From Candidatus Kapaibacterium sp. (lineage in GTDB: Bacteria; Bacteroidota; Ignavibacteria; Kapaibacteriales; WFXC01), in NCBI GenBank assembly GCA_026996895.1, contig JALWJX010000105.1, positions 1-34,557 of the forward strand: a stretch of 34,557 nucleotides of DNA. The letters are read 5' to 3'. Shown piece by piece: positions 4,933 to 12,211 of this stretch. Below the pieces are notes generated by a model. The model saw nothing but the letters and a program-made list of their open reading frames with translations, made no database searches and was not told the origin of the DNA. Each line of letters begins with the position of its first letter. Position 1 is the first letter of the stretch. The translations under genes were made by a program, and so were the position numbers.

Positions 4933-7900
4933 TTATGACGTTGTTGTTTCCAGTACGCGCTGGACTTCCACGATTTGTACTGCCTCAATGATGTCTCCAA
5001 CCTGAATATCATTGAAACTTTCCAGCAGGATACCGCACTCGTATCCTGCTTTCACTTCGCGGACATCGTCTTTATGACGGCGCAGAGAGCGGATTTTCCC
5101 TTCGAAAATTTCGATCCCGTCCCGAATAACGCGCACGGTATCATTGCGGTGGATCACGCCTTCCTGCACATAGCAGCCGGCAACGGTTCCCACTTTCCGA
5201 ATGCGGAAGATTTCCCGAACCTCAGCAATGCCCACCACTTCCTCCCGCTGTTCTGGCTGGAGCATCCCCTGCAGGGCTTTCTTCACATCGTCCACGCATT
5301 CATAGATCACTCGATAAATCCGGATTTCAACGCCTTCGCGTTCTGCTGCTTGCTTGGCAGCCGAGGTGGGGCGGACGTGGAAACCGATCACAATTGCGTT
5401 GGAGGCGGCAGCCAGCATTACGTCCGATTCGGAGATTGCACCGATACCTTTGTGGATAACATTGACAGCAACTTCCGGAGTGGAGAGTTTGTACAGAGCT
5501 TCGGTCAGTGCTTCCAGGGAGCCAACCACATCGGCTTTGAGTACGATGGGCAATTCTTTGACGGCGTGTTCCTGGATCAGAGAAGAGAGATTTTCCAGAC
5601 TCATTTGTCGGCGGCGATGGAGCAGCTTTTCACGCTTGAGAATTTGCCGCTGCCGGGCAATTTCCCGCGCTTTGCTTTCCGTGTCAACAACAACAAAACT
5701 ATCCCCTGCTTCTGGCACCTCGTTGAAACCCAGCACCTGCACAGGAGTTGCCGGGGTTGCTTCTTTGACCCGGTGACCGCGTTCATCGAGCATCGCCCGG
5801 ACTCGACCAAAAGTGGAGCCGCAAACGAAGATATCACCTTCGTGCAGCGTTCCCTGTTGCACCAGAACCGTTGCGACCGGACCTTTGCCACGATCCAGTT
5901 TTGCTTCGATAACTGTTCCCCGTGCTTTTTTTCGAGGGTTTGCTTTGAGATCCTGTAATTCTGCCACCACCAGAATGGTTTCCAGTAATTGATCAACTCC
6001 CTGTCCGGTTTTTGCCGAAACTTCGACGCACGGGACATCACCGCCCCATTCTTCGACCAGCAGTCCTTTCTCCGCCAGTTGTTGCTTAATCAAATCGGGA
6101 TTGGCTTCGGGTTTGTCAATTTTATTGATCGCAACGATGATGGGAACGCCAGCAACCTGGGCGTGGCTAATTGCTTCTTCGGTCTGGGGCATCACGCGGT
6201 CATCAGCGGCAACGACCAGCACCACAATATCCGTCACCTGAGCGCCGCGTGCCCGCATCGCCGTGAATGCTTCGTGTCCCGGCGTGTCCAGAAATGTAAT
6301 GGCTTTATTCGGATCATCCGGGAGGGTGACTTTGTAAGCGCCGATGTGCTGGGTAATGCCACCGGCTTCGCCTGCTACAACGTTGGATTGTCGGATATAA
6401 TCCAGTAGTGAGGTTTTTCCGTGATCGACGTGTCCCATAATGGTAACGACCGGCGGACGAGGCTGGAGATCTTCGGGGCGATCCTCTTCGTCCTCTGTTA
6501 GAGCATCTTCCAGCGGCTCCTCAACAAACCGAACCTCAAATCCCATATCCTCAGCAATCAGCGAGATAATGTCCCGGTCTAACCGCTGGTTGATCGACAC
6601 GATAACTCCCAATTCCATACATTTGACAATGATCTGGTTGGGCGTAACGCCCAGAACATTGGCTAATTCAGCGACCGTGATAAACTCTGGAATTTCCACA
6701 ACTTTTTCCAGTTGCTGCAGCTCTTCCTGACGCTGCAATTCTTCTTGCTTTCGTTGCTGCTTCCGGAGTTTTCGCTGGCGTCGGCGCTCTTCCAGAGCCG
6801 TTTCGCCACCGCTCATTGCTTGAAGCGTCTTTTTCAGCGTTCGTTCAACATCTGCCTGATCGACCTGCTGCTTGCTCTTCTTGCGACGCTTGCGGAAGCG
6901 GACCGGTGGCGAAGCTTCGGCTAAGGCGTCCTGGGGTGACACTTCAGACGCTTCCAGCGTTTCGGTTTCTGGTTCGGGTTCTTCTTCTTTCGCCCGCCGT
7001 TGCTTTACTCCCTTTTCCGCTCGCTTTTTCCGCCCTTTTCGTTGTCCTCGCTCACCAGTATCCCATTCGTCCAGGTCAATGTGTCCCAAAATACGGAAGG
7101 TCGGAATGCCGCTTTCTGGCTCATCTTCTGCCTGCTCTTCCGGGGAAGTTGTATCTTCTGCACCGGCAGTTGGTGCTTCATCCCCTTCTTCGGATGGTGC
7201 CACCGCTCCCTGAGGAGCGGTCAGGACGATGTCTTCACCAAAGCCTTCAGCAGGTTGTAGCTTGATGGAGTCGGCAATGGTTAACGCTGTTTCCAGATCG
7301 GTGGTTTCGACGGGTTTTGTCTCCGGTGTCTGCTCCGCTGGCGGTGCTGTCGTCGCGGGTGTTTCAGCCACCAGTTCTTCAGCGGTGCCTTCCTTTGCCT
7401 CCACTGGTGCTTCCTGCTTTTCCGAAGGTGCGGATACTACCTGCTTGTGTTCTTCTTCTACTACCTGGGGTTTCTGTTTCCTTCCTTTCTTACGTCCTGC
7501 GCGCTTCCCTTTGGATCTGACTTCCTTTGTAGAAGAGGTCTTTTTCTTCTTGGGCTTCGGTTCCAGTGCTTCCAGATCGATTTTGCCGATGATCTTCGGT
7601 CCTACGAGCGTTTCAGTGGCTTCTTCCGAAGGTGCAGGTGACGGTGTAGACTCGGTTGCTGGTTGCGGAACTTCTTCTTGTTCTACCGGTGGAGAAGGTT
7701 CCGGCGGTGATGCAGTTGCTGACGCTTCTGCCCTTTCCTCAGTTACTGTTTCTGCTGCCTGTGCAGCTACGGATCCCACCAGCACTTCCTCCTGTACAGT
7801 CGCCTCTTCTGCCTCCTGTCGTAAGCGCTTGGCTTTTTTGAGATCAGTTTCGAAAGCTTCAGTGACCAATGCGACCATTTCCGGCGTCAAAACCGCCGTT

Positions 7901-8016
7901 GCTTTCTCCTCGATCTCGTAGCCCTTTTCTTTCAAAAACCGGACAATGGCGTCTTTACCGACATTCAACTGTGCTGCTATTTTAAAGAGCCGCACTTTTT
8001 TGCTTTTGGGAGCCAT
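4933..8016 (-). CDS. infB: Translation initiation factor IF-2
   Basis: IF-2 is the GTPase that places initiator fMet-tRNA on the 30S subunit and drives subunit joining. The ATG at 8016 is chosen because [20 protein letters not shown] is the conserved IF2 N-terminal module; the frame is open further upstream but overlaps nusA. The product is 1027 residues, long for the family. Residues about 70-440 are low-complexity, rich in E, A, P and K, and contain two related segments, [12 protein letters not shown] (141-152) and [12 protein letters not shown] (308-319), each followed by a Lys/Arg-rich stretch. A second IF2_N module spans about 446-500. The G domain starts at GHVDHGKT (528-535), with DTPGHEAF and NKID following, and the domain II to IV region completes the protein. 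The Shine-Dalgarno (AGGTG) lies very close to the ATG. Confidence 0.97.
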
Positions 8017-8059
8017 ACACCTGTACCATTTTTCTGTTGAAAAAACTTTTATGTCGTAT

Positions 8060-9760
8060 TTATGTCGTTGTTGCGTCGTTTCTACTTTCTTCGCTGGATG
8101 TAGACGATAATTGAGCGCTGGAATTCTGATCTGCTGCCATTTCTGGCTGCTGAATCGGTGCTTCCTCTCCTGCTGCAACGGTTGTGTCACTGGCTGTTTC
8201 CAGTGCTGAACTTTCCGTCGCTTCCGCAGCAGATACGTCACTCTTTTCCTCTTCCCCATTTGCTTCTACCGTCGATGGCTCGGCTGTGTCCGCAGCGGGA
8301 ATCTCCACAGCCGTTGCAGGCTCTGTTTCGCCGTCTTCAGATCCGGCGATAGGTGTTGCTGCTGCGGTTTCTGCAGCCTCATTTTCGGCGATGTTTTCTG
8401 CTGCTTGCGCTTCGCTCTGCGCTTGCAGTTTTTCTCGCATTGCCATAATCTCTTCCTGGGTGATGGCTTCGATGCGCTCGCGCATCTCTTCGGTTTCCTG
8501 CTCATCGAATTCGTCCAGCATAATCTGCCGAAGTTCCAGAAGGAAGCCTTTGTCCATACCGGGCAGCGCTAAGAGCATCACAGGATCGGCTGCTAAGAAT
8601 TCCCGAGCCGTGGTAATGCCCAGTTTCTCCAGCTCTTCGTAGAGACCAATGCCCAGTTCCTCCACAAATTCCTTCAGTTCTATGTCTTCCCCGATTTCTT
8701 TCACCACCTGGATTTCATAGCCGGTGAGTTGCACTGCCAATCGGATATTCTGTCCACCCCGTCCAATTGCCAGCGGGATCTGATCCTCGCTGACCACAAC
8801 AATAGCGGTCCGGGTTTCCGGGAATACCTGCACCTCCTTGATTTTCGCTGGTGCCAGCACGCGGGCAATAAATTCTCGAGGATCATCCGACCACTTGATC
8901 ACATCGATGTTTTCGTTATTGAGCTCTCGCACGATGGAATGGATCCGCACCCCTTTCATTCCAACACAGGCGCCAACGGGATCAATGCGCGGGTCGTGAG
9001 AATACACCGCCACTTTACTCCGCTCTCCGGGTTCTCGGGCAATGGCTTTGATCACAATGACGCCATCGTAAACTTCCGGGATTTCCAGTTCGAACAGTTT
9101 TGCCAGGAATTGGTTATCCGCTCTTGAGACGATAATCTCCGGTGCACCGCCACCGTGTCGGCGAACTTCTTTGACCAGAACGCGCACGCTTTCCCCTTTG
9201 CGATACCGCTCACCGGGAATTTGCTCTTCTCGCGGCATTCGGAGCTCTACCCCATTGTACAGCAACAGGACGTCGCTACGTCGTACCTGATAGACTTCTG
9301 CGAGGATAATATCATTGAGCCGCTGCTGAAATTCCTGGTAAATATGTTCACGTTCCACCTCGCGAATTTTGGATACCAGAATTTGCTGCGCCAGATGGAT
9401 CATTCGCCGCCCAAATACGTCGGCTAATTCCTGCAGGCTGATTTCCTCTACAAATTCATCCCCGACTTCGTATTCTTCGTCCATCAGGCGAGCTTCTTCC
9501 AGTGAAATTTGCGTGGTTGGATCTTCGACTTCTTCCACGATTTCCCGGATAACGTAGATTTCAATATCCCCCTTTTCCAGGTTGACCACGATGTCAAATT
9601 GCACATCCGGTCCGTACTTTTTCTTCACTAAGGTTGCAAACGTATCCCAGATGATGGCGTGCAGTTTCTCCTTGTCGATGTTGTGTGAGCGCGCCATCTC
9701 CATAAAAGCTTCAACGATCTGCTTTTTGTCTGGTCCCTTGGATTGTTTTTTCCTTGCCAT
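8060..9760 (-). CDS. nusA: Transcription termination/antitermination factor NusA
   Basis: NusA binds RNA polymerase and nascent RNA and modulates pausing, termination and antitermination. The 566-residue protein has an N-terminal polymerase-binding domain (about 1-145), an S1 domain (about 150-215), two KH domains ([19 protein letters not shown] near 260, and [17 protein letters not shown] near 330) and a helix-hairpin-helix-like segment near 370-425 ([17 protein letters not shown]). From about 440 it ends in a long Ala/Glu/Thr/Ser-rich tail that looks disordered. GGAG lies 6 nt upstream of the ATG. It sits 23 nt after rimP and 43 nt before infB, the conserved rimP-nusA-infB order. Confidence 0.97.
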
Positions 9761-9783: not shown

Positions 9784-10242
9784 TTATACAAATTCGATTT
9801 GAATGATGCCGGATTCAATCGTTTCAAAAGCAATGGTTTCTTCTTGCTTGCTCCGCTGATCTTTCAACGTCAGCTTTGCATCATCAACGGCAACAATCCG
9901 CCCTTTGCGCTGTGTGCCGTCGATCAGCGTGAGCAGTACCGTTCGCCCAACGTGTTTTCGATATTGCCACGGAAATTGCAGCGGTCGATCCACGCCCGGC
10001 GATGAAACCGTCAGCCGATAATTGCCCGGTACAGCTTCCGCTTCCAGCAAATCTAACACTGCTTGCGTGATTTCCTGACACAGGGCAATGGTGACGCCGG
10101 TTTCGTTGTCTACAAAGACCTCGATTACCGGCTCGTGCCGATTGCCCCGAACCACAATTTCAATCACTTCTGCTCCTAAGGCTCGAACAATGCGATGGAT
10201 ACCACTTTGAACCGCCTCCGATAACACAATTGCTTCTTGCAT
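9784..10242 (-). CDS. rimP: Ribosome maturation factor RimP
   Basis: RimP assists 30S subunit maturation. The 152-residue product from the ATG at 10242 shows the family pattern: an N-terminal segment ending in VFVDNETGVTIALCQEIT, then NYRLTVSSPGVDRPL, and a C-terminal SH3-like part (GRTVLLTLIDGTQRKGRIV). The start is chosen for GGGAG 10 nt upstream and for family length. In-frame ATGs at 10266 and 10332 would put a terminator hairpin inside or directly before the coding sequence. It is the first gene of the large minus-strand operon, and its leader may control it. Confidence 0.93.
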   Translation of the reverse strand: MQEAIVLSEAVQSGIHRIVRALGAEVIEIVVRGNRHEPVIEVFVDNETGVTIALCQEITQAVLDLLEAEAVPGNYRLTVSSPGVDRPLQFPWQYRKHVGRTVLLTLIDGTQRKGRIVAVDDAKLTLKDQRSKQEETIAFETIESGIIQIEFV

Positions 10243-10252
10243 ATTCTGCTTA

Positions 10253-10288
10253 CTCCCAACAACCATAAAAAATGGGCTCCGTTGGGAG
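10253..10288 (-). promoter_or_regulatory. Alternative pairing that masks the rimP ribosome binding site
   Basis: CTCCCAAC (minus strand, 10288-10281) lies inside the terminator hairpin and is perfectly complementary over 8 bp to GTTGGGAG (10260-10253), which contains the rimP Shine-Dalgarno GGGAG. Terminator hairpin and this pairing exclude each other. Reading through the terminator could therefore still leave the rimP ribosome binding site covered. A switch function is inference from sequence; no ligand or protein partner is identifiable. Confidence 0.5.
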
Positions 10289-10291
10289 CCC
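10267..10291 (-). terminator. Intrinsic terminator (or attenuator) upstream of rimP
   Basis: On the minus strand GGGCTCC, loop CAAC, GGAGCCC (10291-10274) forms a perfect 7-bp GC-rich stem, followed by ATTTTTT (10273-10267). It lies about 85 nt after the mocA-like stop and ends only 24 nt before the rimP ATG. A promoter for rimP hardly fits between it and the gene, so it either ends the mocA transcript with partial read-through or works as an attenuator in the rimP leader. Confidence 0.85.
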
Positions 10292-10374
10292 TTCCCATTT
10301 GCGAGGAGTGCAATCCTCAGCAAATGCGCCATAGTAAACGCTTCTGCCGGGAAGATATTGCAAACTTTTTCTTC

Positions 10375-10965
10375 TCAGGATTGCTGGAGAAGATGCTGGT
10401 AATCTGCCTCCGTATCCACGTCGATCAAGATACCCGGATCATCAAGATCGAGCCACCGTACCTGGTCAGCATAGTGCTGGAGGAGTGGACGGGCACCCTG
10501 ATCGCCGGAAAGCTGGAGCAGCGCATCCCGGAAATGGGCGGGAAAGAGAACAGGATTACCTCGCTGCCCGTGATACCGAGGAACCAGGATGCGGTCGGGA
10601 AACCGGTTGTGCTGGTGCAGGAGCGTTGCATATGTGCGAGGTTGCACTTTCGGCATATCACCCAGGACAAACAGATAGCCCGTTGCCGCATCAGAAGCTG
10701 CCCGGACCCCGTACTGAATAGAACGTGCCAACCCGCATTCGGCTTCGGGATTTTCTACCCAGCGCACCGGAAAGGAAGCGAGCAGATGGCGAAAAGGGGC
10801 TGTTGATTGGACGACAACGATCGTTTCTCCCAGCGGTAGTGTCGCTAAGGATTCCAGTACCCAGCCTAAGATGGGCTTTTGCTGCAATGGAAGCAGCAGT
10901 TTTTGTTTCTGCTGCATCCGCCGCGCAAATCCTGCAGCGAGGACGATGGCAGACACACTGCTCAT
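10375..10965 (-). CDS. mocA: MocA-like molybdenum cofactor nucleotidyltransferase
   Basis: The family transfers CMP (MocA) or GMP (MobA) to molybdopterin to make the dinucleotide cofactor. The 196-residue protein begins with the nucleotide-binding SAIVLAAGFARRMQQKQK, has FVLGDMPKV near residue 113 as the metal-binding aspartate region, and RGNPVLFPAHF followed by GDQGARPLLQ, a stretch typical of MocA relatives, then DVDTEADY. The start at 10965 overlaps the upstream xdhC-like stop by ATGA. Pairing with XdhC favours the cytidylyltransferase of the xanthine dehydrogenase family over MobA. A generic NTP-transferase role cannot be excluded, and no molybdoenzyme gene is in the window. Confidence 0.8.
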   Translation of the reverse strand: MSSVSAIVLAAGFARRMQQKQKLLLPLQQKPILGWVLESLATLPLGETIVVVQSTAPFRHLLASFPVRWVENPEAECGLARSIQYGVRAASDAATGYLFVLGDMPKVQPRTYATLLHQHNRFPDRILVPRYHGQRGNPVLFPAHFRDALLQLSGDQGARPLLQHYADQVRWLDLDDPGILIDVDTEADYQHLLQQS

Positions 10966-12017
10966 TGTTTGCCCGCTTTGCCATACTTCGCCGCTACGAT
11001 TTCTGCGATGATACTCACCGCAATTTCTGCTGGTGTGATAGCGCCAATCGGCAGCCCAATAGGGGCAGCAATGCGAGCAAGTTCTGCGTCCGTGAATCCC
11101 TGCTGTTGAAGGCGTTGCACTCGTTTCTGGTGCGTTTTCCTGCTGCCCAGCGCACCGATGTATCGAACTGGCGATCGCAGGAGCCATCGCAACGCATCAT
11201 CATCGATTTTCGGATCGTGGCTGAGCACCACCGCATACGTTTCTTCCGTGATGGGCAATGCTGGCAGTACCTCCGAGGGCCACTGATGGAACAGCCGATC
11301 CGGCAGTTGCGGAAATCGCTCAGGATGGGCAAAGACCTTCCGGGGATCGATTAGCACGGTTTCCATTCCCAGCCGGTGTCCAAAAATGATGAGATCGAAC
11401 GCTGGAAATCCCGCTCCGATAATCAGCAGCATTGGCTTTGGTGGAAGTACGCCGAGAAAATATTCTTCCGATTGCTCTACCACCGTCATCGACCGCCGCT
11501 GCTGGTATGCTTCAGCGATCGTTGTATTCAGGGATTCGGGGATGGAAACCGGCAGCGGAGCAATCCATCCACGATGGGCGCTCCAGACGCCTTCAAGTAC
11601 AGGATCGCCTTCCGCTGATGGTAACCGAACGACCCATACGATGCCTTCTCCAGATTGAAGTGCGCTCGACAATGCTTTCCAGACGCTTTGCCGTTCGGGA
11701 TCTACCGCTGGATGGAGTGCAACGAGTACCCGGATAGCACCGCCACAGGACAGTCCTACATTCCACGCTGTTTCGTCATCGACGCCGAAGTCAGCGACCA
11801 CTGGTACTCCTGTACGCAACACCTGCTGGGCAATTTCTACGACAGCAGATTCGACGCAGCCGCCACTGACTGCTCCTTCGATCTGGCGGTCGTCGGCGAT
11901 GAGCATCTGGGTGCCGACCGGCTGCGGCGCCGATCCCACTGTCCGGAGCACTGTTGCGACGGCGAAGCGTTTGCCCGCCTGGCGCCATCGTTCAATTGTT
12001 CCCAGCAATTCCCGCAT
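10962..12017 (-). CDS. XdhC/CoxI family protein
   Basis: XdhC-family proteins bind molybdenum cofactor, help its sulfuration and insert it into xanthine dehydrogenase-type enzymes. The protein shows the N-terminal XdhC domain (FAVATVLRTVGSAPQPVGTQ and VSGGCVESAVVE) and the C-terminal Rossmann domain (LLIIGAGFPAFDLI, then VVLSHDPKIDDDAL, GALGSRKTHQKRVQRL, and IGAITPAEIAVSIIAEIVA). The start at 12017 (MRELLGTIERW) follows family alignment and gives 351 residues. In-frame starts at 12074 and further upstream exist, and no Shine-Dalgarno decides. It forms an overlapping pair with the mocA-like gene. Its upstream region is shared with divergent leuS, and I see no consensus promoter on this strand. 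Confidence 0.85.
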   Translation of the reverse strand: MRELLGTIERWRQAGKRFAVATVLRTVGSAPQPVGTQMLIADDRQIEGAVSGGCVESAVVEIAQQVLRTGVPVVADFGVDDETAWNVGLSCGGAIRVLVALHPAVDPERQSVWKALSSALQSGEGIVWVVRLPSAEGDPVLEGVWSAHRGWIAPLPVSIPESLNTTIAEAYQQRRSMTVVEQSEEYFLGVLPPKPMLLIIGAGFPAFDLIIFGHRLGMETVLIDPRKVFAHPERFPQLPDRLFHQWPSEVLPALPITEETYAVVLSHDPKIDDDALRWLLRSPVRYIGALGSRKTHQKRVQRLQQQGFTDAELARIAAPIGLPIGAITPAEIAVSIIAEIVAAKYGKAGKQ

Positions 12018-12211
12018 TGTGCCGTCATCACATTGTGCGTTCAACAAAACTTCCGCCTTGAAAGGACAAACCATAAAACGGGAAAAGAACCGATGCCGTG
12101 CACACCCGGATTTGAAGCGATAACGAAGTCCACACTGCCAGTGCTTTTTGCCATCATTTTGCAATACCTGACAACTGGCAGCTTGACCCTGTTGTCTCTA
12201 CTGGAATGCAA

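Follow-up and report, generated by a model that had tools for sequence, protein, structure and literature searches.

Organization of the rimP-nusA-infB locus

The window, that is, the whole 34,557-nucleotide stretch of DNA analysed here, comes from a genome of 2.7 Mb and carries the rimP-nusA-infB operon with its leader on the minus strand of the contig, the genes following one another in the order rimP, nusA, infB, rbfA and truB. The rimP gene (9784..10242, minus strand; 152 residues, coordinates including the stop codon) matches PF02576 and PF17384 and starts at the ATG at 10242–10240. It is followed by nusA (8060..9760, minus strand; TIGR01953 and PF08529), the second gene of the operon, whose 566-residue reading frame has family matches that stop near residue 354. 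The mechanically called infB frame (4933..8259, minus strand; TIGR00487) overlaps the end of the nusA frame by 200 nt, and the true infB start probably lies nearer 8060. Upstream of rimP, on the same strand, lies a gene for a MobA-like nucleotidyltransferase (mocA-like; 10375..11187, minus strand; PF12804, with TIGR03310 under its cut-off), and this gene and an XdhC-like one form a set of molybdenum-enzyme maturation genes (10375–12164, minus strand) directly adjoining the operon.

The leader contains two hairpins. The first is an apparent intrinsic terminator (10274..10291, minus strand) of the form GGGCTCC-CAAC-GGAGCCC, with the GGGC...GCCC core of known rimP leaders; its arms (10291–10285 and 10280–10274) form a stem of 7 bp, six of them G-C, closed by the loop CAAC, with a calculated energy of −13.3 kcal/mol. 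A U tract of six T (10267..10272, minus strand), preceded by an A at 10273, follows the stem and ends 24 nt before the rimP ATG. The second hairpin (10296..10326, minus strand) lies upstream of the first and pairs as CATTTGC-GAGGA/TCCTC-GCAAATG; it would be transcribed with the leader only from a start site lying further upstream. Both elements had been described in the original prediction, and the terminator is present on the minus strand exactly as described there (7-bp stem, 6-U tract, 24 nt before the ATG), while the further hairpin, noted as GAGGA/TCCTC (10318–10314/10307–10303), is in fact longer, with 12 bp and a single bulge. The 144-nt leader folds more stably than its dinucleotide shuffles (z = −3.71), and in transcripts ending at 10267 the terminator belongs to the minimum-energy fold for all five assumed start sites. 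A scan for sigma-70-type promoters returned none near the window leader. No credible match in the window leader came from Rfam, either at the gathering threshold or at E≤10, and at E≤0.1 the loci of seven relatives gave one sub-threshold microRNA match and nothing else.

Two other readings of the leader were considered and set aside. Starting with an ATG at 10332, the rimP reading frame stays open across both hairpins (10240–10332, minus strand), as it would for an N-terminal extension of RimP; this ATG is ATA in the close relative G001, and in 59 rimP leaders of the order the end of the terminator is separated from the RimP domain by 47–187 nt (median 67). An antiterminator AAATGGG/CCCATTT, considered by eye as an A-rich complement of the U tract, is weakened in G001 by a change of GGG to GGA at 10294, and does not appear in any fold of a transcript ending at 10267.

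Close relative and the proposed alternative fold

Comparison within the genus relies on one close relative that has the locus, G001; another genome of the genus, G002, gave no RimP or NusA match. The G001 leader is identical to that of the window at 122 of 132 positions, and none of the 10 differences falls within the arms of either hairpin. One of them, C10281G, changes the terminator loop.

The original prediction had also proposed that the leader is an RNA switch, in which eight bases of the hairpin, CTCCCAAC (10281..10288, minus strand), pair instead with GTTGGGAG (10253..10260, minus strand), a strand that includes the Shine-Dalgarno-like GGGAG (10257–10253). The pairing itself is there: the 8-nt complementarity is perfect but only somewhat unusual, with P about 0.01 in dinucleotide shuffles; of the comparable segments of the window, 1% (51 of 5304) have a complement of that length. 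The calculated energies in the window favour the alternative helix (−16.8 against −13.3 kcal/mol for the terminator), and when the read-through RNA is assumed to start at 10295, 10327 or 10330 this helix gives its minimum-energy fold. The switch does not follow from it, since GTTGGGAG (10260–10253) lies downstream of the termination point and is made after the U tract (10272–10267), so that the alternative helix is unable to prevent termination and could act only by hiding the Shine-Dalgarno motif of RNA that has already read through. In G001 the C10281G change removes one pair of the alternative helix, leaving 7 nt of the complement; there the terminator (−14.5 kcal/mol) is stabler than the alternative (−11.5 kcal/mol) by 3 kcal/mol and is kept in the minimum-energy fold of the read-through RNA. 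Across the order the signal is near chance: complementarity between hairpin and start region at p≤0.05 was found in 7 of 97 terminator-bearing leaders, about 5 being expected, and the two genomes of the window's genus (8 nt in the window's own genome, G000, and 7 nt in G001) are among those seven. Both helices had been expected to be conserved in relatives; the second is weakened in the sole close relative and is not conserved beyond it.

What may survive of the idea is a translational effect. If the RNA is taken to start at 10309, 10354 or 10374, its minimum-energy fold keeps the terminator formed and pairs GGGAG with ACUCC of the upstream hairpin, two segments that are both unchanged in G001. 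Since these folds hide the motif as well, some hiding of the Shine-Dalgarno in read-through RNA of the window's genus is possible as far as folding models go. Use of the motif is patchy, however, an SD-like sequence being present at 8 of the 20 open reading frame starts checked in the window. That CTCCCAAC and GTTGGGAG alternate with the terminator to hide the rimP Shine-Dalgarno, and so control translation of the read-through RNA, is in our judgement very unlikely.

Conservation of the terminator across the order

The terminator was followed through the order of Kapaibacterium-like Bacteroidota, whose families are labelled f1–f10 here, the window and G001 belonging to f1. RimP (PF02576) was detected in 68 of 123 genomes, and 59 of these 68 rimP loci carry the terminator core, as defined by a relaxed regular expression (GGG[CT]...[AG][CT]CC followed by T4, within 230 nt upstream of the domain). 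The core is present in f1 (2/2), f2 (21/23), f4 (8/8), f6 (1/1), f7 (9/9), f8 (3/3), f9 (14/14) and f10 (1/1), and is missing from f5 (0/6) and from the single f3 outlier (0/1); the nine misses are thus six f5 loci, two f2 loci and the f3 genome G080. All six rimP loci of f5, a family of small genomes, are without it (L053, L054, L057, L062, L071 and L077), from which it follows that the leader is dispensable.

The relaxed expression was set after stricter ones had missed loci (46/68 for rimP; 39/44 for f3 nusA) and presupposes a GGG/CC core, so that the near-invariance of the core pairs among its arms is partly built in. Figures free of this presupposition come from a generic detector that asks for a stem of at least 6 with at least 4 GC and requires no sequence. 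It found hairpins in 45 of the 68 rimP upstream regions (dinucleotide-shuffle mean 1.4) and in none of 30 alaS upstream regions, a control drawn from 30 genomes of the order in which one locus, L246, has only about 203 nt of upstream sequence. The GGGY...RYCC core is present in 44 of these 45 rimP matches, the exception being G029 of f5. A looser detector gave 51 of 68 for rimP and 2 of 29 for alaS (L246 excluded). Within the stem, the first inner pair covaries (T-A, A-T, G-C and G-T) and is paired in 47 of 62 distinct arms, a count reached by none of 1000 shuffles (mean 29.3) but uncorrected for relatedness; compensation at the outer pairs is weak among the same 62 arms.

The motif is also largely confined to this position. 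The strict pattern GGGCN{2,14}GCCCAYTTTTTRTT occurs 43 times, in 41 of the 122 genomes of the order (reversed control, 0), and 39 of the 43 stand in a rimP or nusA leader, 26 before rimP and 13 before nusA. By eye, the remaining four comprise two within apparent coding sequence (L105 and L127) and two resembling ordinary gene-end terminators (L122 and L123). The window's own genome has no match to the strict pattern, the window U tract being followed by the letters ATG; the looser GGGCN{3,16}GCCCATTTTT has two matches in that genome, one of which is the leader (reversed control, 1). The second (L103) was dismissed, as by eye it lies in open sequence that looks like a TrpB-like gene.

Position of the terminator relative to a promoter box

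The sequence TAnnTTTG is given as the promoter-box consensus of Bacteroidetes in the part of a Flavobacterium study used here (PMC9723704). It occurs 5–35 nt before the stem in 45 of the 59 rimP leaders (1.8 by shuffling), with spacings of 11–32 nt, and in the same interval before the stem in 34 of 38 nusA leaders of f3 (1.8 by shuffling). A box just before the stem places the terminator inside the leader in those families and, judged from sequence, it would be reached within a few tens of nucleotides of the presumed start site in most of them. Some of the leaders without the box have something close to it: f7 has TAnnTTTG in 1 of 9, six of the other eight showing by eye a near-variant such as TAATTTAG, and three f2 misses and one f4 miss read TATATTCG, again by eye.

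Neither of the two f1 leaders, those of the window's genome and G001, has TAnnTTTG 5–35 nt before the stem, so that in f1 it is only a supposition that a rimP promoter transcribes the hairpin. Together with the stop codon of the mocA-like gene, which ends at 10375, 83 nt ahead of the stem on the same strand, this leaves room for another reading, in which the hairpin of the window's genus is mainly the 3′ terminator of the mocA-like operon and rimP is expressed by read-through or from an overlapping promoter. The same core motif stands just behind a promoter box in most other families, which speaks against this reading, and we regard it as quite unlikely; the two roles, 3′ terminator of mocA and leader element of rimP, may coexist in the window's genus.

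A leader hairpin directly before nusA

Family f3 apparently lacks RimP, although many of its genomes (for example those of L135–L153 and L165–L184) are near complete. PF02576 matched 1 of 54 f3 genomes (G080), and an order-specific RimP profile matched none of 29 at E≤0.001 (a single weak hit stood at 0.144) and recovered 3 of 3 positive controls. The sole PF02576 match, in G080 (L035), has an unrelated upstream hairpin, GAGTGAG..CTCACTCC, and its rimP possibly sits on a contaminating contig.

In this family the hairpin immediately precedes nusA, at 38 of the 43 loci by the relaxed expression. The 43 loci derive from 46 f3 genomes with NusA, a number obtained by subtraction, of which 44 were used and one (G108, whose contig ends at the gene) was dropped; the other two genomes, G074 and G105, lie outside the f3 count, and in them the strict pattern matches at 91 and 61 nt, respectively, ahead of the NusA domain. 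The generic detector found hairpins in 28 of the 43 nusA upstream regions (shuffle mean 0.0), and 26 of these 28 have the GGGY...RYCC core. In the 38 loci the U tract lies only 57–187 nt from the NusA domain, which leaves no room for a rimP gene.

The presence of the leader before nusA where RimP was not found argues against a requirement for RimP as effector and in favour of nusA (or infB) as the gene controlled; it suggests that the leader may serve nusA, and a leader in this position also fits control of infB. The idea that RimP, a 30S maturation factor, is the feedback ligand instead of NusA draws on rimP being the first gene of the operon outside f3 and on a mention of this possibility in the part of Naville & Gautheret (PMC2965389) relied on here. 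With the same unit before nusA in f3, where RimP is found in 1 of 54 genomes by one profile and in 0 of 29 by the other, we consider it extremely improbable.

Comparison with known leaders

A screen by Naville & Gautheret in 2010 (PMC2965389), taken here from part of the article, found the rimP-leader to be the most ubiquitous attenuator in its set and describes it as a GGGc...gCCC hairpin followed by a T stretch, located 4–130 nt before rimP and having no visible antiterminator; NusA is named as the best candidate regulator. The window element has the stem (GGGCTCC/GGAGCCC), the U stretch (A followed by T6, 10273–10267) and the position (24 nt before the rimP of a rimP-nusA-infB operon), and it, too, is without an antiterminator, the terminator being in the fold at the end of the U tract from five assumed starts. 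We therefore regard it as a new member of this published attenuator class. The published rimP-leader is attributed to a ‘majority of species' with Firmicutes and Gammaproteobacteria among them, ‘Bacteroidetes' being absent from the main text as far as the article was covered (PMC2965389). The leaders described here differ from it in belonging to Bacteroidota, in having TAnnTTTG close upstream in most families, in standing directly before nusA in f3 and, in the window, in having an extra upstream hairpin. In the literature on rimP and nusA leaders, as sampled from parts of the sources, a leader before nusA without rimP was not found reported.

The gammaproteobacterial rimP leader of Rfam (RF01770) spans 102 positions and has two hairpins, the second of which (UGGGC...GCCC-U7) is the same motif as that of the window. 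The window has no match to the whole model, even at E≤10, and so none at the gathering cut-off of 47 bits; the E. coli control scores 102 bits. Escherichia coli K-12 itself has GGGCTTTAGGCCC-T7 before rimP, that is, GGGC(TTTAG)GCCC-T7, which forms part of its RF01770 match. According to the portions of the E. coli literature considered here, two terminators, t1 and t2, precede rimP, and the expression of NusA is influenced by NusA itself (PMC6511841), and fusions of the rimP 5′UTR plus reading frame fell, rather than rose, in a Rho mutant (PMC7815308), for which reason other layers of control may exist.

Closer in phylogeny, a structured 5′ element without an Rfam match has been described upstream of rimP in Flavobacterium psychrophilum and other genera of Flavobacteriaceae (PMC9723704, ISME Communications). 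It shares phylum and gene with the window hairpin and is likened to it by position, its structure being undescribed in the part of the paper used. Applied to 30 other Bacteroidota loci, the looser detector scored terminators in 21 of the rimP leader regions and in none of the 30 control stretches inside rimP; these loci are the best-scoring NusA matches, not a random sample, and some of the hairpins counted are separated from rimP by more than 100 nt. The sequence of the stem varies between lineages elsewhere in the phylum. Outside the order but within its class, the strict pattern has matches in 3 of 163 genomes, no excess over the 2 of its reversed control: one match (L218) precedes a RimP-like frame, another (L220) lies in a 499-codon open frame, and the third is L219. 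Five loci (L185–L187, L189 and L190) have tandem terminator-like hairpins before rimP, GGGGGGC..GCCGCCC-T6 followed by a CG-rich hairpin with T6, an arrangement reminiscent of the two-hairpin gammaproteobacterial rimP leader.

A terminator at this position need not be regulated at all; it might lower the expression of the operon by a fixed fraction, with no regulating factor involved. The absence of an antiterminator, the folding of the terminator at the end of the U tract from every assumed start, a hairpin strong enough to need no helper and the lineage-specific stems elsewhere in the phylum would all fit such a passive role. It leaves unexplained the common GGGY...RYCC core of the hairpins found without regard to sequence (44/45 before rimP and 26/28 before f3 nusA) and the same core in E. 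coli, and sits poorly with the autoregulation of nusA reported, in the parts of the sources drawn on, for other bacteria (PMC6511841, PMC12288461). We consider it unlikely, if less so than the other alternatives weighed above.

Discussion

The observations are best explained, and we think with reasonable probability, by the intrinsic terminator in the rimP-nusA-infB leader being an attenuator that works without an antiterminator fold, with NusA as the likeliest feedback factor. RNA polymerase would transcribe a short leader, the GGGC...GCCC hairpin and the U tract would stop part of the transcripts before rimP, and the expression of the operon would be set by the fraction that reads through. 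If NusA stimulates termination here, a high level of NusA would lead to less NusA synthesis and a low level to more. Termination in vivo at the window hairpin is presumed from its form, and NusA is likely the effector.

Feedback by NusA on the leader, put forward in the original prediction as a plausible idea, gains from the published rimP-leader class and from Bacillus subtilis, where NusA is reported to be autoregulated by NusA-stimulated termination in the 5′ leader (PMC12288461, a 2025 review, cited from part of its text). The B. subtilis case is a mechanistic analogy, in that a leader terminator likewise controls the nusA operon; NusA dependence is reported there and only presumed here. 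The NusA-dependent terminators of B. subtilis, as Mondal is said to have found in 2016, tend to be weak, whereas the window terminator looks strong. This strength (7 bp, −13.3 kcal/mol) and the unbroken U6 tract count against this explanation, as do the absence of the core from f5 (0/6) and of the canonical TAnnTTTG from f1.

A broader proposal is more tentative, and we rate it as possible although somewhat short of an even chance. The GGGC/GCCC leader hairpin might be a conserved recognition element for a NusA-containing elongation complex, belonging to nusA rather than to rimP, so that the unit stayed fused to nusA when f3 lost RimP; it would then be an autoregulatory leader of nusA, shared by Gammaproteobacteria and this order through conservation, with other stems in other Bacteroidota.

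The apparent natural loss of rimP in f3 separates RimP from NusA, the two candidates for feedback left open by Naville & Gautheret in the part of their article considered here (PMC2965389), and the family offers a minimal unit of promoter, hairpin and nusA for the direct study of NusA autoregulation.
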